Shown here: positions 10,070-16,608 of the stretch, one piece after another
How the letters are laid out: each line of letters opens with the position of its first letter
Position numbering within the stretch: the stretch's first letter is position 1
NCBI RefSeq assembly: GCF_000020725.1
Contig: NC_011146.1
Location: 2,479,501 to 2,543,500 of the forward strand
DNA from: Citrifermentans bemidjiense Bem
GTDB taxonomy: Bacteria; Desulfobacterota; Desulfuromonadia; Geobacterales; Geobacteraceae
Reading direction: 5' to 3'
DNA length: 64,000 nucleotides
Notes under the pieces: generated by a model
What the model saw: the letters and a program-made list of their open reading frames with translations, nothing else
What the model was told of the DNA's origin: nothing
Databases searched by the model: none
Made by a program: the position numbers and the translations under genes

Positions 10070-10789
10070 ATGTTGATAGAAGGTATGACCATGGAGGAGT
10101 TTTCCCGGGGACTGACGGTCAGTAAGACCGTGTACATTCCGTTCGGGTCGGTCGAGGAGCATGGCAGCCACTTGCCGTTATCCACCGACACCATCGAGGC
10201 ATATGAGGTCGGCAAACGCGCGGCTGAAAGAATTCCGCTATTCGTGGCGCCGCCGATCCATTATGGATCCTGCCGATCGACGTCGTGCCATCCCGGGACC
10301 GTATCGATCAGCACTGCGACCCTGAAGTCGCTGCTCAAAGATATTGTGCGATCCCTGCACGCGCATGGGCTCACCAATTTCATAGCATTGACCGGTCATG
10401 CGGGCGGTTCGCACAAGATGGCGTTGCAGGACGCCGGCGAGGAACTGATACGCGAGTTGCCGGAGATAAACATGGCCGTCGTCACCGAATACGATTTGGC
10501 CAAGGAAGCCGGCGCCGGTATCATCGAGACTCGTGGCGATGCGCACGCCGGCGAGATCGAGACCTCGAGGATCATGCACTCGCATCCGCATCTGGTCAAA
10601 GGGCTTGCCGAGGCCGAGTACCCGTCGTTTCCGACCGGGATCCTGGTTCGGGACAAACGGAGTTTCTGGCCCGGCGGTGTCTGGGGCGATCCCGGCAAGG
10701 CGACCGCGAAAAAAGGGCGCATGCTGGAATCCCTGGTCGCGGACAAGGTGGTCGAACTGGTAAAGGCGTTGGAGAGCCGGCGCTGGTAA
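10070..10789 (+). CDS. creatininase-family metal-dependent amidohydrolase
   Basis: 239 residues from ATG 10070 behind AAGGAG at 10056-10061. The N-terminal IPFGSVEEHGSHLPLSTDT contains the Glu, His and Asp that bind the two metals of the creatininase fold. ALTGHAGGSHKMALQDAGEEL and GDAHAGEIETS add the remaining His and Glu ligands. Family members hydrolyse cyclic amides such as creatinine or FAPy compounds, and MftE acts on mycofactocin. No mycofactocin genes and no pterin genes are adjacent, so the substrate is open. It is isolated by repeats and a strong terminator. Confidence 0.9.
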   Translation: MLIEGMTMEEFSRGLTVSKTVYIPFGSVEEHGSHLPLSTDTIEAYEVGKRAAERIPLFVAPPIHYGSCRSTSCHPGTVSISTATLKSLLKDIVRSLHAHGLTNFIALTGHAGGSHKMALQDAGEELIRELPEINMAVVTEYDLAKEAGAGIIETRGDAHAGEIETSRIMHSHPHLVKGLAEAEYPSFPTGILVRDKRSFWPGGVWGDPGKATAKKGRMLESLVADKVVELVKALESRRW

Positions 10790-10840
10790 AAGTGCCCAAA
10801 AAAGAGGCTTCCAAATTTGCCGTTTAAAGGGACTTTTTGC

Positions 10841-10873
10841 ATGGGTGCAGGGGTAGGCCTGCACCCATTTTTC
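10841..10873 (+). terminator. rho-independent terminator after the creatininase gene
   Basis: ATGGGTGCAG pairs with CTGCACCCAT around GGGTAGGC and is followed by TTTTC. It ends the 10070-10789 transcript. Confidence 0.9.
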
Positions 10874-10879
10874 GTACAA

Positions 10880-11239
10880 CAGAGATAGAAGCGGTTTTAC
10901 CTGGTCGGAGGCGTCGACGCAAGGAGTTTGACCGTAAGAGTCGAAACTGAAACGTCGAAAGTACGAGAAGGGATTTCAAGTGAAGCCATTCCAGAGGGTC
11001 GGGGCGTGCGGCGGGTCTTAAGCGGCAAGGCGCGAACACGACGACTAGGCCAGGGGGGCGAAAGTTTTTTAAAGCCAAGCGTGCGATGTGCACGGCGGGG
11101 TATATAATTGAGCCTGTCTCCTAGATAGGCGAAACACGAAGAGAGCAGAGAACCTTCAGCGGTATAATCCTGCCACCAATCCCTTCGAAAACGAGCAAGT
11201 CGCTCACCTCCGTGCAAACCCTGCGAACCCATACACTCA
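10880..11239. other. non-coding stretch leading to the first dif-like site
   Basis: About 360 bases with no coding sequence I can support on either strand. The base composition is uneven: GC-rich with many CGAAAC and GTCGAAA words from 10900 to 11060, a TATATAAT at 11101, then AT-rich. A minus-strand frame of 126 codons exists but has no ribosome site and a low-complexity C-terminus. It may be a structured RNA or a decayed gene. Confidence 0.35.
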
Positions 11240-11267
11240 ACTTGACATAATATATCTTGCGAAGGAT
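11240..11267 (+). other. dif-like site 1 (left boundary; altered right arm)
   Basis: Left arm ACTTGACATAA and centre TATATC are identical to site 2. The right arm TTGCGAAGGAT keeps only the first two bases of TTATGGGACGT. This is what the left junction looks like when an element with a diverged arm has recombined with a chromosomal dif. Confidence 0.65.
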
Positions 11268-11326
11268 TATGTGACATGCGGTAATTCCTATGTAATTGAG
11301 AATAAACAAATTACGAATTAGCGAAA

Positions 11327-11770
11327 TTAAAGAATTTGTTCCAGCCCGTGTTGCATGTTTGCATCACTAGGAAGCGCCAACCGAGAGAGCCACTGTTCCA
11401 GAGTTTCACGGTGGTAAAGAATTTTTCCACCAATTTCAATCTCTCCGGGAATCTCCCCAGATTTACGCATCCTGTAAAACGTGGTCCGAGAAACGTTAAG
11501 CAGCTCGCACACCTGAACCATGGTAAGTAGCAACGGAACCAGCGGCGTAGATGCCGATAAGGGAGCAGGGGAAGGGGAGACGCTAAGACTAGGGCTGTCG
11601 CCCTGGTCGACGCTACATGGCATAGCAGAGGGACCTTGAGAGACAACCGCAGACATATACCCATCATCATCAATGGCTCGACGTTGCGACTTCTCATACT
11701 CAGACTGCAGCAGATCATAAGGAGAGCGGTTAACCCTCTTGCCAGTGTTCTTTTTCTTTCGCTGAGCCAC
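11327..11770 (-). CDS. excisionase-like MerR/HTH_17 DNA-binding protein (module 1)
   Basis: 147 residues from GTG 11770, with GGAGG four bases upstream. The N-terminal 80 residues are basic then Ser/Pro-rich and probably disordered. The C-terminal part (about residues 83-135) is a winged helix of the excisionase/helix_turn_helix_17 type: LTMVQVCELLNVSRTTFYRM, then GEIPGEI, and the wing KILYHRETLEQWL. Such proteins act as recombination directionality factors or repressors in mobile elements. It is the gene next to dif-like site 1, and five phased GTTTC boxes lie directly upstream, so it may control its own promoter, recombination or replication of the module. Confidence 0.8.
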   Translation of the reverse strand: MAQRKKKNTGKRVNRSPYDLLQSEYEKSQRRAIDDDGYMSAVVSQGPSAMPCSVDQGDSPSLSVSPSPAPLSASTPLVPLLLTMVQVCELLNVSRTTFYRMRKSGEIPGEIEIGGKILYHRETLEQWLSRLALPSDANMQHGLEQIL

Positions 11771-11781
11771 ACAACCTCCAT

Positions 11782-11871
11782 GTTTCAGAATGTTTCAATC
11801 AGTAGTGATTATGACCCATAGCATTAACTGTGGATTGTGTCAAACCGTTTCTAAATGTTTCCTAGCGTTTC
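11782..11871. promoter_or_regulatory. five GTTTC boxes on one helical face (iteron-like)
   Basis: GTTTC (GAAAC on the gene strand) starts at 11782, 11792, 11847, 11857 and 11867, so spacing within each group is exactly 10 bp. They lie upstream of the GTG start at 11770 of the HTH gene. The arrangement suits cooperative binding by a small HTH protein, or iterons of a replication origin. Confidence 0.5.
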
Positions 11872-11884
11872 AATAACGAAAATT

Positions 11885-11908
11885 ACCCCCGTGTTACAGA
11901 ACGGGGGT
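11885..11908 (-). terminator. rho-independent terminator of the module 1 operon
   Basis: ACCCCCGT (11885-11892) pairs with ACGGGGGT (11901-11908). On the minus strand it is followed by AATTTTCG. It would end leftward transcription from the 12652 promoter before the HTH gene. Confidence 0.75.
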
Positions 11909-11969
11909 GTCAGCTGTCTCAGCATCCTCTCTCCGGCTTACGCCTACGAGCCGTCAGCATAGCCAGCTT

Positions 11970-12022
11970 GCCTGACGCGCTACCGCTTGTCCTGGGGGCA
12001 CGAATACCCGGCAGAGCCGGGC
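11970..12022 (-). repeat. conserved module motif, copy in module 1
   Basis: On the minus strand: hairpin GCCCGGCTCTGCCGGGT, about 15 variable bases, then GACAAGCGGTAGCGCGTCAGGC with one small insertion relative to module 2. The same motif is at 12723-12776 on the plus strand. Position and structure suggest an origin, packaging signal or small RNA. The function is unknown. Confidence 0.55.
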
Positions 12023-12050
12023 ACACGCGCCCCCAATAGGGAATAACCTG

Positions 12051-12242
12051 TCAGAGATACCAAGAGCGAATTTTAAGGACACGGCGACAGGACGGGTGTA
12101 AAAGGCGAGATTTCCCAACCATGCGATCATACACAATACGAAGAGCCTTTTTGCGCTTACGATCACAAGGATTCTTCTGCAACCACCAGAGGACATAAAT
12201 TTCCATTTCATGGGAAGTAGCACCCACCCCTCGTAAACTCAT
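12051..12242 (-). CDS. small basic protein, coupled to the module 1 AGR-family gene
   Basis: 63 residues, rich in Arg, Lys and Trp (EIYVLWWLQKN, then CDRKRKKALRIVYDRM). Its ATG (12242-12240) overlaps the TGA of the preceding gene as ATGA, which is the main support for it being real. A competing frame of 89 codons over the same bases lacks such coupling and runs through the conserved structured motif. Function unknown; the charge suggests nucleic-acid binding. Confidence 0.5.
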   Translation of the reverse strand: MSLRGVGATSHEMEIYVLWWLQKNPCDRKRKKALRIVYDRMVGKSRLLHPSCRRVLKIRSWYL

Positions 12243-12652
12243 ACCTTGACCCCCTTTGATCTAAGATACGGCCTAGATAAACGGCCAGCTTTGCGAACAA
12301 TTAATTCCACTGAGTAACAATCAATACAGTGTCCTGACTCTCTCAAATGGTCCCTTGTCTTACGTATGATGTGATAAACAGTCAAATCAGGGCAAAGGTA
12401 AATATCAAAGACAGAGACAACAAGAGAACTGAAACGATCAAACTCAGCACGTCTCCTTTGTTGCTCGATAGCAGATTGGCTTTTTTCTGTAGCCTTTGCT
12501 ACACGTGCACGCGTCTGTGCATATTGAGAAATATGGAGTGTAGAACGGAGGAAATCTTGAAAGGGACGAAACAGGGCTTCAGGAATAGAAAGTGTAAGTA
12601 TCGCAACACCGTCTTTGTATTGAACTGAATCGATCTTGTAAACTTCGGGCAA
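12239..12652 (-). CDS. AGR-family protein of module 1 (two-domain form)
   Basis: 137 residues from TTG 12652, without a clear ribosome site. Residues about 10-55 (DGVAILTLSIPEALFRPF, then ARVAKATEK) match the N-terminal part of the module 3 protein at 14117 (YVYLSIALPEEMTRFF, then ARAAVAVRKA). Residues about 72-130 (VVSVFD, then VRKAGRLSRP) match the C-terminal domain shared with modules 2 and 3. I call this shared domain AGR after its conserved triplet. The open frame continues upstream into dif-like site 2 with no start codon, so the gene may have lost its N-terminus at the junction. No known family is recognised. Confidence 0.7.
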   Translation of the reverse strand: MPEVYKIDSVQYKDGVAILTLSIPEALFRPFQDFLRSTLHISQYAQTRARVAKATEKSQSAIEQQRRRAEFDRFSSLVVSVFDIYLCPDLTVYHIIRKTRDHLRESGHCIDCYSVELIVRKAGRLSRPYLRSKGVKV

Positions 12653-12665
12653 ATTGTCAAGTTCA

Positions 12666-12693
12666 ACTTGACATAATATATCTTATGGGACGT
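12666..12693 (+). other. dif-like site 2 (both arms intact)
   Basis: ACTTGACATAA / TATATC / TTATGGGACGT. By hand alignment it matches 19 of 28 positions of E. coli dif (reverse complement) and 19 of 28 of B. subtilis dif. The reversed left arm TTATGTCAAGT fits a XerD half-site (E. coli TTATGTTAAAT) at 9 of 11. The right arm would be the XerC half. It is the best candidate for the chromosomal dif sequence itself. Confidence 0.7.
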
Positions 12694-12722
12694 AACTGGT
12701 CTCTACTGACCGAGCACTCGGC

Positions 12723-12776
12723 GGCCCGGCTCTGCCGGGTGGCTGTGGGCTCGCGACAAGCGAAGCGCGTCAGGCC
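12723..12776 (+). repeat. conserved module motif, copy in module 2
   Basis: Hairpin GCCCGGCTCTGCCGGGT, about 13 variable bases, then GACAAGCGAAGCGCGTCAGG. It lies between dif-like site 2 and the only gene of module 2. The copy in module 1 is on the opposite strand, so modules 1 and 2 are inverted relative to each other by this marker. Confidence 0.55.
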
Positions 12777-12836
12777 TTTTGGGTTTATTACCTGTTCGCA
12801 ATCTCCGACAGAATTTCTTGGGGAGGGTCAGCTCTA

Positions 12837-13241
12837 ATGCAGATGCACAGGAAGATCAGCCTGCGCCTCGATGCGGACCTCGCTGATCGCTTACAGATGC
12901 GCGCAGATCGGGAACGAGTGCCAGTGTCCTGTCTGCTTCGTCACCTCGTTGTCAGGCTGCTTGATGGCTCCCAGGTTGGAGAGAGACCCGCCCTCTCCCC
13001 CCATCGTCAAGAAGCACCTGGGCACCTGAAAAGCAGGACCGAGCAACTGCAAGCTGAGTTCATGTCAGAGGTCTGCTCAACCTATGACTCCTTCAAGAGG
13101 CAGGGTCATGATTGGGTTGTGGCCACAAAGCTCACGAATAAGGCTCTCAAGGCCAAGAACCACCCTTGGGCAACGTATGAGGTCATCCAGGGAGTACTGA
13201 GAAAAGCAGGCCGATACCGGAAGCAGAAGCTTGTTTCATAA
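12837..13241 (+). CDS. ribbon-helix-helix / AGR fusion protein (module 2)
   Basis: 134 residues from ATG 12837, with GGAGGG ten bases upstream. Residues 4-45 (RKISLRLDADLADRLQMRA, then VPVSCLLRHLVVRLLDG) form a ribbon-helix-helix DNA-binding unit close in sequence to the separate 61-residue protein at 13942. After a short linker, residues about 75-132 (FMSEVCSTYDSF, NKALKAKNHPWATYEVI, RKAGRYRKQ) are the AGR domain found in the proteins at 12239 and 14117. It is the only gene of module 2. A DNA-binding regulator, replication initiator accessory or partition-like role is possible; I do not recognise the family. Confidence 0.85.
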   Translation: MQMHRKISLRLDADLADRLQMRADRERVPVSCLLRHLVVRLLDGSQVGERPALSPHRQEAPGHLKSRTEQLQAEFMSEVCSTYDSFKRQGHDWVVATKLTNKALKAKNHPWATYEVIQGVLRKAGRYRKQKLVS

Positions 13242-13343
13242 GGCGGAACTTGACACCGGTCCGACAAACGCCGCAAGATGCCAGACAAATCGTCCGGACA
13301 ATCGCGGGTAAGGGGAAGCTGTGCAACGTAACTGCCCGATATC

Positions 13344-13371
13344 ACTAGACAGTCTATATCTTATGGGACGT
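13344..13371 (+). other. dif-like site 3 (altered left arm)
   Basis: ACTAGACAGTC / TATATC / TTATGGGACGT. Centre and right arm are identical to site 2. The left, presumed XerD, arm matches at ACT and GACA only. It marks the boundary between modules 2 and 3. Confidence 0.65.
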
Positions 13372-13398
13372 AAATAATGCGTCCAAGAGGAGAGTATT

Positions 13399-13887
13399 AT
13401 GGCCAAGAAAGAGTGTTTCCACCTATCCAGAGGCGGCTCCTGCGAGCTGCCCTCCTGCGACTACAAGCGGGTTGAGCTGCAAATTGTCGACTGGACCGGA
13501 TGCAACGGCAACGGCCGCGATGAGTCCTTCGACGTTTCCACCTGGACACCTGAGCAGTTCGCTGCACATCATGCCTTCGTCAATCTTACGGCAGGAACCC
13601 CTACGGCTTTCGACAAAGAGCTGGAAGGAATCTCTGAACCGCCGCTACGGCTTTTCCATCTTCTGCATTCGCTCTTTGGTTCTGAGGGCGTCAAGCGTGT
13701 TTATTCTCTGCCGACCATACGCAATTACAGGCGGCGTCTGCGTGATGCCGGCTTTGATTACCCCTCTCGTCACGTTCCGACCGGACCAAGGAAACCCCGC
13801 GCCATGAAGGACCTGTCGATGGGACCATCGAAGCCTCGAAGGTCATCCGAAGCCGCGCAGCGTGCGGTAAGTAATACCGCACTCTAG
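13399..13887 (+). CDS. unrecognised protein with N-terminal Cys cluster (module 3)
   Basis: 162 residues from ATG 13399, behind AGGAGAG. The first 40 residues hold five Cys and one His (ECFHLSRGG, SCELPSCDY, TGCNGNG), a possible zinc knuckle. Residues 48-115 are predicted helical (TWTPEQFAAHHAFVNL, PPLRLFHLLHSLFG). The tail from about 118 is rich in Arg, Pro and Lys and looks disordered and nucleic-acid-binding. It is the first gene of module 3, 55 bases before the RHH gene and in the same direction, so the three genes probably form one operon. I do not recognise a family. Confidence 0.75.
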   Translation: MAKKECFHLSRGGSCELPSCDYKRVELQIVDWTGCNGNGRDESFDVSTWTPEQFAAHHAFVNLTAGTPTAFDKELEGISEPPLRLFHLLHSLFGSEGVKRVYSLPTIRNYRRRLRDAGFDYPSRHVPTGPRKPRAMKDLSMGPSKPRRSSEAAQRAVSNTAL

Positions 13888-13941
13888 TCCACTACGGTAG
13901 ACTTTTGCCCCTTTTCGAAGGGATCGAATGGAGGGTTTCAG

Positions 13942-14127
13942 ATGGTCATTTACGACAGGAAAATCAGCGCCAAGATCGACGGCGAACGCCTAGAAGCGTT
14001 GCAGGAATATGCGAGGAAAGAAGGAGTCACTGTATCAACCTTGCTCCGGCATTTGGTTTGCCGGTTCCTTGAGAGTCAACAGCGATTTGCACCGACGATA
14101 CAGCAAGGGGTGAAGGATGGCTTCTAA
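13942..14127 (+). CDS. stand-alone ribbon-helix-helix protein (module 3)
   Basis: 61 residues from ATG 13942 with GGAGGG upstream. MVIYDRKISAKIDGERLEAL gives the beta strand and first helix, and EGVTVSTLLRHLVCRFLES the second helix. The LLRHLV core is identical to that in the module 2 fusion protein. It would bind DNA as a dimer. Its 3' end overlaps the next start by 11 bases, so it is translationally coupled to the AGR-family gene at 14117. Probable transcriptional or copy-control regulator. Confidence 0.85.
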   Translation: MVIYDRKISAKIDGERLEALQEYARKEGVTVSTLLRHLVCRFLESQQRFAPTIQQGVKDGF

Positions 14128-14647
14128 TCTATCTACGATCAAGAAAGCTGGACTTGGTCGCCCTCCCCTTGCGCCTCAATCAATGACCGTTGACATTGAT
14201 CGGGCGCTTTCGCAGTTGAACACAGCGTTCAACCCGTTGCACCAAGACTTTGCCTTAGACTTTCACGTCCAGGGCGCCAAAAACGGCTATGTTTACCTGT
14301 CCATCGCTTTGCCCGAAGAAATGACCCGCTTCTTTGTCCAACTGCTGGAGTCGATGCACGGCTTTTTCCGTTGCATGGACATCAAGGCCCGAGCCGCTGT
14401 CGCAGTCAGGAAAGCTGCCGATCCCTTCGCGATCATGGAGGCCGAGGAGCGGCACGAGGCGTTTAAGGAAAAGGTCTGTTCCGTGTTCGATGCTTTTAGG
14501 GGTCAGGGGATGGAGTCAAAACAGGCGATCAGCCGAACGAACGAGGCCCTTAAGGCCGAAAATTGCCCTTGGGCCACCTACGAGACTATCGTGGGTATCC
14601 TGAGAAGCTCAGGACGCTTCAGGAAGCTGAGGCGTTCAAGGGACTGA
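14117..14647 (+). CDS. AGR-family protein of module 3 (two-domain form)
   Basis: 176 residues from ATG 14117, with a GAAGG just upstream inside the RHH gene. Residues about 25-100 (IDRALSQLNTAF, YVYLSIALPEEMTRFF, ARAAVAVRKA) match the N-terminal domain of the module 1 protein. Residues about 115-172 (EKVCSVFDAF, NEALKAENCPWATYETI, RSSGRFRKL) are the AGR domain. With the RHH gene just before it, modules 2 and 3 hold the same parts fused and split. Function unknown; a partner of the RHH protein is the simplest reading. Confidence 0.85.
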   Translation: MASNLSTIKKAGLGRPPLAPQSMTVDIDRALSQLNTAFNPLHQDFALDFHVQGAKNGYVYLSIALPEEMTRFFVQLLESMHGFFRCMDIKARAAVAVRKAADPFAIMEAEERHEAFKEKVCSVFDAFRGQGMESKQAISRTNEALKAENCPWATYETIVGILRSSGRFRKLRRSRD

Positions 14648-14964
14648 CGAAGAGCGGAGGCTGCGCCCGGAGCGACGAGGAAGTCCAAGGAATGCGCAGT
14701 TGCCCGAGCAATCCCCAAGGAGGTGAGATTAGACGGGTCGAGTCGGTATTCCCCAAGACCAAGCGAGGCCCGGCTAGCTCCTTGGGGGTTGGCCAGGATG
14801 GGGCCGGTTAGCACGGATAGCCTCTGTGCGAATTATCCTATAGGAAAACGCTTAGTTAGCTTTAATCGAATGCTTGACAAATGGTGCGACAAAGGCGTAA
14901 AAAGTCCGACCTTATAGGGGGACACTTTGCGGGTCAGGGACTCTATGTCTTTGTAAGTAATTGA
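14648..14964. other. non-coding end of module 3
   Basis: No gene is supported. Several GC-rich inverted words occur, notably CCCCAAG/CTTGGGG pairs at about 14750-14790. This could be the counterpart of the structured motif of modules 1 and 2, but the sequence is not the same. After 14830 it turns AT-rich up to dif-like site 4. Confidence 0.35.
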
Positions 14965-14992
14965 ACTTATTAGAGTATATCTTATGGGACGT
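14965..14992 (+). other. dif-like site 4 (right boundary; altered left arm)
   Basis: ACTTATTAGAG / TATATC / TTATGGGACGT. The left arm keeps only ACTT; centre and right arm equal those of sites 2 and 3. This is the expected right junction of the array. Confidence 0.65.
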
Positions 14993-15149
14993 AAAAAGTA
15001 AGTTCCAGGGAAGGGCCAAAAGCCTCCCTCCCATCCATCCCACACCGCCGAAGGCCAGTCATGTAGACGAAATGTAACGAAATTCTTCACTCCCAACTTT
15101 GACAAACAGATGGATGTTCCCAAGTGGTACAACTTTTTAAAAACGTGAT

Positions 15150-15475
15150 CAGTTTAATTGAAAAGAGTTCCACTTTTCAGTAGACCAGTTACGCTTTTCG
15201 CCAAACAGGAACAGTTTCCATAAAAGCAGTTCCACTTTCCCGGAAACCGGTCCAGCTTTTTTCTAATCTGGTACAGCTTTTTTCTAATCTGGTAACAGTT
15301 TTGAGGAAAACGGTTCCACTTTTCCCAAAACCCGTTCAGCTTTTTTCTAATCTGGTACAGTTTTGAATAAAACCGGTCCACTTTTTCCAGAACCGGTTCA
15401 GCTTTTTTCTAATCTGGTACAGTTTTGTGGAAAACAGTTCCACATTTCCGAAACTGGTTCCCCTTTTCTCCAGAC
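15150..15475. repeat. degenerate tandem array, about 20-bp period
   Basis: Roughly fifteen imperfect units built on GGTwCAGCTTTT or GTTCCACTTTTCC and separated by AAAACC or TAATCT words. The longest exact unit, CTTTTTTCTAATCTGGTACAG, recurs three times, with a fourth partial copy. It begins about 160 bp beyond dif-like site 4. It is not a CRISPR because the units abut without unique spacers. It may be the multiple terminal repeats of a lost transposon, or iterons. Confidence 0.7.
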
Positions 15476-15675
15476 AGCCAATTCAAGAATGCCAAGTCTG
15501 GATTGTCACCCTCCGTTTCGATTCCTAATGTTTATTAAAGACCGCAAATCATGTGCTGAATACAAAGTTTCGATATTCCGGCATATTAATCCTGGAGGGC
15601 CTTGATCCACCCACTCAACTGGATATACTAACCTTTGCTAAAAACTTCCGAAAATTTCACAAAGGAGATCACATC

Positions 15676-16608
15676 ATGAGAAGAATTAAAGCAACCTTTG
15701 TCTCTGCCGCTATTCTCACTCTAACACTGGCTGGATGTGGCGGTGGTGGTGGCTCCAGTACACCGACAGTATCGGGAGTTGCGGCCACAGGCATGCCTAT
15801 GAGCGGGACTGTATTCCTAAAGGATTCCGCCAACAGTGAGACGAACACGACAATAAATCCGCAAACCGGCAGCTTTTCGTTCAACGTCAGCGGCAAAACC
15901 CCTCCGTTCATGCTGCGGGCTGGTGCATTGTACTCTATGAGTGCAGGGGCTGGGACTGCCAACATAAACCCCGCGACAACGCTCATGGTCGCCAATATGG
16001 GAAGCTTCACTAATATGTCGTCCCTAAACAGCTTCTACAGATCGCCCAATTCAACGACCATGGTTTCGATGATGGCTAGTGAGCCTGCATCGTATCAGCA
16101 ATTCCAGCAGAAAATGGTACCGCTCCTGAACCAGTACGGTGCGACGAACATGGATCCCATGACGGGATCTTTCACCATCGGGCAAGGTTTAGACAAGATG
16201 TTCGATGACGTGAAAATGACCATAGATAATAATGGAAACGTCAGCATGATGTACGCCAATGGCACCGCAGTATTCACTGGCCCCATGGGTAATATGGCAG
16301 CCGGCACCATGATGTCTGGAAATATAGTTATGCCTGGTACCGCGCCCACATCAAGCGCGATAGCTGTATCACCGTCAACGATCAGACTGCAGGTGGGTGG
16401 TGCGCAACAGTTCACAGCAAGTGTTCCAGTTACTTGGTCGGTCATCACCGCCAACGGCGGCAGCATCTCTTCCACAGGGCTTTACACGGCCCCAAGTTCG
16501 GCGGGGATTTTCATGGTCAAGGCAACAAGCATCGCGGACCCGACTAAGTCCACCATGGTAATGATCCAGGTCGGAAATACAGGAATGGTTATGATGAAGA
16601 TGTCATGA
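15676..16608 (+). CDS. Met-rich lipoprotein with C-terminal Ig-like domain
   Basis: 310 residues from ATG 15676, with AAAGGAG seven bases upstream. A lipoprotein signal ends at LTLAGC (Cys about 22), followed by a Gly/Ser linker. The middle (about 35-230) is rich in Met, Asn and Ser and resembles the lipoprotein at 31949. Residues about 232-305 (AVSPSTIRLQVGGAQQF, GLYTAPSSAG, ATSIADPTKS) form a bacterial Ig-like (Big2-type) unit. It is likely anchored to the outer membrane. Met-rich stretches can bind Cu(I), but that is inference. A good terminator follows. Confidence 0.85.
   Translation: MRRIKATFVSAAILTLTLAGCGGGGGSSTPTVSGVAATGMPMSGTVFLKDSANSETNTTINPQTGSFSFNVSGKTPPFMLRAGALYSMSAGAGTANINPATTLMVANMGSFTNMSSLNSFYRSPNSTTMVSMMASEPASYQQFQQKMVPLLNQYGATNMDPMTGSFTIGQGLDKMFDDVKMTIDNNGNVSMMYANGTAVFTGPMGNMAAGTMMSGNIVMPGTAPTSSAIAVSPSTIRLQVGGAQQFTASVPVTWSVITANGGSISSTGLYTAPSSAGIFMVKATSIADPTKSTMVMIQVGNTGMVMMKMS

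Follow-up and report, generated by a model that had tools for sequence, protein, structure and literature searches.

How did three very small stretches of DNA, each bounded by Xer-type recombination sites, come to stand in tandem in the chromosome of Citrifermentans bemidjiense Bem? The question was raised by positions 11,240 to 14,992 of a 64,000-nucleotide stretch of its genome (RefSeq assembly GCF_000020725.1, contig NC_011146.1, positions 2,479,501 to 2,543,500), hereafter called the window. The initial annotation of this DNA had described four 28-bp sites with a common centre, TATATC, and shared arms, and had attributed them to serial insertion of circles into a single dif site by host XerC and XerD. 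All four sites, the centre and the pattern of arm sharing were found exactly as described (Table 1). The three modules between them are here read as probable inovirus satellites of 0.68-1.62 kb that lack Rep and coat genes, integrated by host XerCD and replicated and packaged by a helper. Comparison genomes are designated by G numbers and fetched stretches or contigs by L numbers; the order is Geobacterales and the class Desulfuromonadia.

Judged from its sequence, site 2 is the intact chromosomal dif. The published dif of Geobacter sulfurreducens, ACGTCCCATAAGATATATTATGTAAAGT (PMC2731167), differs at one base from the reverse complement of site 2, and on this basis the right arm on the window strand is taken as the XerC arm and the left arm as the XerD arm. 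This dif lies at 2,492,166 and dnaA at 178 of 4,615,150 bp, which places dif 54% of the way round the chromosome from dnaA; distance to dnaA was used here, GC skew within the window being too flat for placing the terminus. At up to three mismatches the right half-site has three matches in the window, every one exact (0.01 expected), and the left half-site has two, both exact (0.02 expected). Scatter of the arm word over many unrelated loci had been named in the initial annotation as a ground for giving up the module model; in the whole genome TATATCTTATGGGACGT has three exact copies, all within the array. Only exact matches are meaningful for this word, since tolerance of three mismatches added one genomic place (two mismatches) and the reversed-pattern control gave four. 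The dif core CATAATATATCTTATGGGA was present at up to three mismatches in 53 of 58 genomes, the window's own (G000) counted, and the congener G016 is one of the five without it. The single dif of G007 (L041, 9851-9878) has a XerC arm, TTATGGGCGTT, unlike that of most congeners, and is a possible excision scar.

An exact empty site in G006, where both window flanks abut directly on a single dif, shows that what lies from site 1 to site 4 was inserted at dif. The left flank matches at 94% identity over 2.9 kb, falling to 77% in the last 0.2 kb, and the right flank at 96% over 0.35 kb. An empty site at the same locus had been predicted. In a first sample of 20 dif regions, 17 from the window's genus and three from its family, extra dif-like sites were present in four (G002, G005, G008, G015), and the other 16 had a single site at the scan threshold. 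A whole-module relative of module 2 stands alone at dif in G005, and a relative of module 3 stands alone at dif in G002; the modules are therefore separate units. The G002 insertion carries TTATGGGCGAT on its inner site and TTATGGGACAT on its outer site, matching the arm exchange predicted for such an event. It is scarcely credible that the array is one composite element, or a resident island moving as a block: the three modules are adjacent and all are absent from G006, but modules 2 and 3 have relatives that stand by themselves in other genomes, the internal sites are exact, and neither att class nor origin type is uniform across the modules. Conservation of the whole segment as one block with no empty site, the other pattern held to speak against separate modules, was thus not what the relatives showed. 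Directly to the right of the array (window 15120-15470) are AT-rich TTTTTTCTAATCTGGTACAG-type repeats, partly kept in G006.

No recombinase, Rep, coat or morphogenesis match was obtained when seven open reading frames (ORFs) of the array were compared with Pfam and PHROGs, in keeping with the earlier remark that the modules have no recombinase of their own. Genes for XerD-like (372 bits) and XerC-like (318 bits) proteins sit elsewhere in the genome, and their products would be the catalysts. The empty site, the single modules, the arm exchange and the lack of a local recombinase match together give good support to the view that host XerCD inserted the modules at dif one after another.

Two mirror-image classes of attachment (att) site were distinguished. 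In class A, represented by modules 2 and 3, the outer site has an intact XerC arm and centre and a degenerate XerD arm; in class B, represented by module 1, the XerD arm of the outer site is intact and the XerC arm is degenerate. The outer sites catalogued comprise 20 of class A (modules 2 and 3 and 18 others) and eight of class B (module 1 and seven others), the latter keeping 9-11 of 11 bases of the XerD arm (9 of 11 in G121) and having lost the XerC arm. Wherever an intact dif was found, elements of the two classes lie on opposite sides of it, and G117 has both classes around one dif, as in the window. A conserved XerC arm and centre with a degenerate XerD arm are described for TLCphi-type att sites in the accessible text of PMC4246890 and PMC5357621; modules 2 and 3 fit this description and module 1 does not. 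Class B is absent from the three integration types set out in the same portions of these papers. An inverted XerD-arm-like word, TTATGTGACAT, lies at window 11267-11277, 16 bp past the intact XerD arm of site 1; no word of this type was seen at the other class B sites.

One protein family, hereafter called H, is encoded by all three modules and also by small dif modules and full inovirus prophages of related genomes. The initial annotation had listed small DNA-binding proteins and an unknown family as cargo, and proteins of the helix-turn-helix (HTH) and ribbon-helix-helix (RHH) types were indeed found beside H in these modules. H occurs in 26 of 141 genomes of the order and in 49 of 277 of the class. 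In stretches fetched from 25 of the 26 H-bearing genomes of the order, an intact dif lies at most 8.6 kb from 28 of 33 H ORFs; those without one are in G040 (two), G131, G121 and, as a contig-edge fragment, G041, and in G131 and G121 a class B half-site adjoins H. Outside this count are an H-like open frame beside dif in G008 that is without the usual start codon, H matches on unfetched contigs of G077, G135 and G041, and a weak match in G069, at a 3-kb locus with a class B-like half-site nearby. Six genomes of other orders were fetched at a looser threshold: a both-armed dif-like site was present in the stretches of G175, G176, G232 and G189, a weaker one in G254 and none in G230. Zot was found in two of 12 H-bearing genomes of other orders. 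A candidate rule that att class is set by H clade (three changes, against 7.2 when shuffled) was not relied on, the contrast being inflated by the meeting of long branches and by near-copies.

The same chromosomal slot holds inoviruses. At dif, seven insertions with lengths of 5.8-9.0 kb encode H together with Zot (seven of seven) and Rep, the latter matching PF02486 in G135, G136, G126, G043 and G125 and PF05144 in G117 and G046. Attachment-like and coat-like ORFs were recognized by eye in most of these insertions, and the one coat tested gave weak matches. In G135 and G117 a smaller H module stands in tandem with an inovirus at one dif. The small modules of relatives measure 0.68-1.83 kb site to site and contain subsets of the HTH, RHH and H set, with HTH ORFs of like start, as judged by eye, in modules of G064, G075 and G135. 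Two larger modules have Rep, one of 3.2 kb in G117 (PF02486) and one of 3.6 kb in G008 (PF23343). The class B insertion of G008 (L042, 9980-13570) contains a G2P-like Rep, an FRG-domain protein and a second H-like frame next to dif, and is perhaps two fused modules.

Origin-like hairpins form a further link between small modules and inoviruses. A type-1 hairpin of 24 nt, resembling a rolling-circle origin and with stem GCCCCCGT and loop NNNRTAAC, is present in module 1, in other small modules and in inoviruses. Eight Rep_trans elements were read (G135, G136, G126, G043, G125, L117, L118 and the 3.2-kb G117 module, with L117 and L118 coming from the hairpin search itself), and in seven of them this hairpin lies within the rep ORF, toward its 5' end; in module 1 it stands without rep. 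The cleanest independent test of the link is an exact type-1 scan of 2.9 million viral contigs, which returned two matches; in each, Zot, Rep_trans and H accompany the hairpin, as do dif-like sites. A type-2 hairpin, with loop AGTAATAC, is present in module 3, in the modules of G073 and G077 and in the phages of G117 and G046, whose Rep is Phage_CRI. As an exact pattern it occurs among the 141 genomes only in G077 and G117, and in none of the viral contigs, but the loop had been set one base longer than that of module 3, which made the search an unfair test. An imperfect hairpin of about 100 bp (L036, 10235-10333) is common to modules of G002, G008, G015 and G064 and is a candidate packaging or complementary-strand signal.

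Because H is common to inoviruses at dif, the hairpins are shared, and small modules stand in tandem with inoviruses in G135 and G117, the three modules are best placed with the dif-integrating, RS1- and TLCphi-like satellites of filamentous phages, and not with a new kind of cassette. Two attributes of such satellites are seen in them: no recognized coat, morphogenesis or Rep gene, and elements in common with inoviruses, namely H in all three modules and the hairpins of modules 1 and 3. The array would consist of one satellite on the XerD-arm side of dif and two on the XerC-arm side. In circular form each would have a single dif-like att site, of which the centre and one arm are well preserved, and recombination with dif by host XerC and XerD would leave the degenerate half-site outermost and an intact dif beside the host arm. 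As intact dif is rebuilt, further elements could stack and dimer resolution would be kept. When a helper inovirus is present, its Rep would nick the released circle at a hairpin like that in the helper rep gene, the helper being of the Rep_trans type for module 1 and of the Phage_CRI type for module 3, and the nicked satellite would be packaged with helper coat proteins. Besides H, the only proteins that such satellites would retain are small DNA-binding ones (HTH, RHH). The features of the array are collected in Table 1; an Rfam search of window 10500-16000 gave no match.

Table 1. Recombination sites, modules and features of the dif array (window positions)
Feature	Position	Strand	Remarks
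S1, outer att of module 1	11240..11267	+	ACTTGACATAA.TATATC.TTGCGAAGGAT; class B
S2, intact chromosomal dif	12666..12693	+	ACTTGACATAA.TATATC.TTATGGGACGT
S3, outer att of module 2	13344..13371	+	ACTAGACAGTC.TATATC.TTATGGGACGT; class A
S4, outer att of module 3	14965..14992	+	ACTTATTAGAG.TATATC.TTATGGGACGT; class A
Module 1	11240..12693		class B; 1426 bp site to site; H and right end closest to G008 insertion
HTH_17 (excisionase/AlpA-like) protein, 147 aa	11327..11770	-	PF12728, 2e-14; 45% to HTH protein of G015 module
Type-1 origin-like hairpin, module 1	11885..11908	-	ACCCCCGT(TCTGTAAC)ACGGGGGT; sole exact pattern match in genome
GC-rich structured block	11970..12022	-	common to module 2 and G005 module
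Small ORF, 63 aa	12051..12242	-	without family match
H protein of module 1, 137 aa	12239..12652	-	hallmark family
Module 2	12666..13371		class A; 678 bp site to site
GC-rich structured block, module 2 copy	12724..12775	+
RHH-H fusion protein, module 2, 134 aa	12837..13241	+	RHH match under Pfam cut-off
GGGTAAGGGGAA motif, module 2	13306..13317	+	38 bp ahead of outer site
Module 3	13344..14992		class A; 1621 bp site to site
ORF, 162 aa, module 3	13399..13887	+	without family match
Type-2 origin-like hairpin, module 3	13862..13882	+	GTGCGGTAAGTAATACCGCAC; loop common to two Phage_CRI-type inoviruses
RHH protein, module 3, 61 aa	13942..14127	+	match under Pfam cut-off
H protein of module 3, 176 aa	14117..14647	+
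Degenerate GGGTAAGGGGAA copy, module 3	14931..14942	+	8/12, alone not beyond shuffles; 34 bp ahead of outer site

Several observations weigh against the satellite reading. No excised circle, particle or transfer has been seen. The Zot model has no match in this genome; no resident helper is therefore visible, and the elements would await an incoming one. Where Zot does match it is no proof by itself, since the model also matches four of 14 control genomes. Viral-contig scans in which H of each of the three modules, or a class A alignment (A2), served as query gave no confirmed match. H is without a known fold. For the members tested, comparison with Pfam, PHROGs, PDB sequences and, in the case of modules 1 and 3 only, PADLOC gave nothing above a curated cut-off (weak matches, E 0.03-0.23); module 3 H had no match in the phage collection, and its fold predicted from 10 sequences (pLDDT 72.6, pTM 0.43) had no structural match in PDB or BFVD at E≤0.001. 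With respect to the hairpins, the rep of G125 has a similar stem with a different loop. In favour of the type-1 hairpin, its pattern has 14 matches in 10 of the 141 genomes and none when reversed; ten of the 14, however, were already known before the pattern was written. Two of the four new matches are in G040 by H genes near a variant dif-like site and one is in G095 by Zot and a Rep-like ORF; the fourth (G040:C1:204406-204425, L161) adjoins a tyrosine-integrase-like ORF, without H. In an alignment of 16 hairpin sequences, 11 of them distinct, whose rows were chosen as hairpins and thus favour pairing, 95.5% of cells pair and four of eight pairs change on both sides. Neither the pairing nor the covariation score was reached by any of 500 shuffles, which speaks for the hairpin; two measures are weaker, the number of both-sided pairs being reached by 10 and the number of pair types by 405 of the 500. 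The type-2 hairpin has thinner support, in five sequences. Finally, module 2 is without the hairpin found in its G005 sister and may now be unable to replicate.

The missing hairpin of module 2 and the missing Zot match would also fit degenerate inovirus prophages, that is, modules that are deletion remnants of full phages with no life of their own. Deletion does occur at such sites: in G119 a 322-bp unit between two dif-like sites (L089, 10160-10509) is a deletion derivative of that genome's own 1.8-kb module, consisting of the two module ends only, without an ORF of 50 amino acids. Decay from full phages is nevertheless an unlikely origin for the modules, as the same module types recur in separate genomes and the HTH/RHH/H set recurs among the small ones. 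The rates of synonymous (dS) and nonsynonymous (dN) change (dS 2.10 and dN 0.20 for module 2 RHH-H against G005; dS 1.45 and dN 0.29 for module 3 H against G002) indicate that purifying selection acts on H and RHH in the pairs tested. In the H tree, a separate group (98/93) is made up of six H proteins from class A phages, apart from small-module H, and the small-module H of G135 groups with that of G138, not with that of G135's own phage; most small-module H proteins are unresolved among themselves. The small modules also have a motif near att. Derived from the same sequences that were then scored, this GGGTAAGGGGAA-like motif lies 34-38 bp ahead of the outer att site and scores at least 8/12 in 13 of the 15 small modules of class A; it is beyond shuffles at 0.05 in 10 of the 15, whereas four class A phages and G117s, scoring 5-6, lack it.

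Another conceivable source of the array is pdif-like cassettes, by which are meant Xer modules that have no kinship with phages and travel on plasmids with host-useful cargo. The module boundaries and the lack of a recombinase match are as expected of such cassettes, and chromosomal islands of dif modules, likewise arrays of Xer-bounded modules, have been described in Acinetobacter (PMC12907356, accessible text). The Acinetobacter modules differ in carrying resistance genes, insertion sequence elements and others, with no phage link in the abstract. An origin as plasmid cassettes is very improbable for the window modules, in which no cargo of this kind was recognized; H and the hairpins are common to inoviruses, and module 3 H, the only one of the three searched there, had no match in 72,556 plasmid records. 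According to the initial annotation, phages of the IMEX type (integrative mobile elements exploiting Xer) and plasmid pdif modules are related to the array in mechanism; the insertion at dif by host XerCD is well supported, and the evidence points to inovirus satellites, not to plasmid pdif cassettes. Its statement that no such chromosomal array was known has to be tempered in view of the Acinetobacter islands and of tandem inoviruses at dif, which are described in the part consulted of PMC7307601. Among the matches listed in a search of titles and abstracts on dif, IMEX, satellites, inoviruses and Geobacter filamentous phages, subscription papers and preprints being outside its coverage, the present elements were unreported.

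To our knowledge, filamentous-phage satellites come mainly from Vibrio (RS1 and TLCphi). RS1 of CTXphi encodes RstA, RstB, RstR and RstC and has its own replication gene. Like the window modules it is a filamentous-phage satellite, accompanying a phage integrated at dif; unlike them it is listed, in the accessible literature, under the CTX type of integration. An autonomous plasmid, likewise a small replicon, is reportedly an inovirus satellite, going by the title of a work by Schmid et al. from 2024. In the plant world, the betasatellites of begomoviruses are tiny, Rep-less single-stranded DNA (ssDNA) satellites with an origin hairpin in common with the helper; these belong to plant viruses, and no homology to the modules is claimed. 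TLCphi of Vibrio cholerae is similar in being a satellite at dif without coat genes and in having an att site like that of class A (PMC4246890, PMC5357621, accessible text). It differs in having its own replication module, where the small window modules have none recognized, and in that class B has the opposite arm degenerate and H is not known in TLCphi.

As H is common to satellites and phages and tied to dif, it is proposed to be an accessory factor for Xer recombination at a degenerate att site, in analogy with XafT and RstB. This proposal is plausible, though put forward at slightly less than even confidence, and the main alternative is that H regulates the helper or replication. On a broader and more tentative view, which is possible but the less likely outcome, the class would host an old, dedicated lineage of Rep-less, coat-less ssDNA inovirus satellites down to 0.68 kb, with an origin hairpin like that of helper rep, a new Xer-activating protein in H, and mirror-image att classes that load dif from either side, as a bacterial counterpart of the betasatellites. 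If the satellite reading is true, a satellite of an ssDNA phage can be reduced to one or two small proteins plus an origin and an att site, and minimal elements of this kind recur at dif across a bacterial class. Exploitation of Xer through either arm would be demonstrated by the mirror-image att class. H, as a candidate new Xer accessory factor, would make the recruitment of XerC and XerD by elements with a broken arm directly testable.

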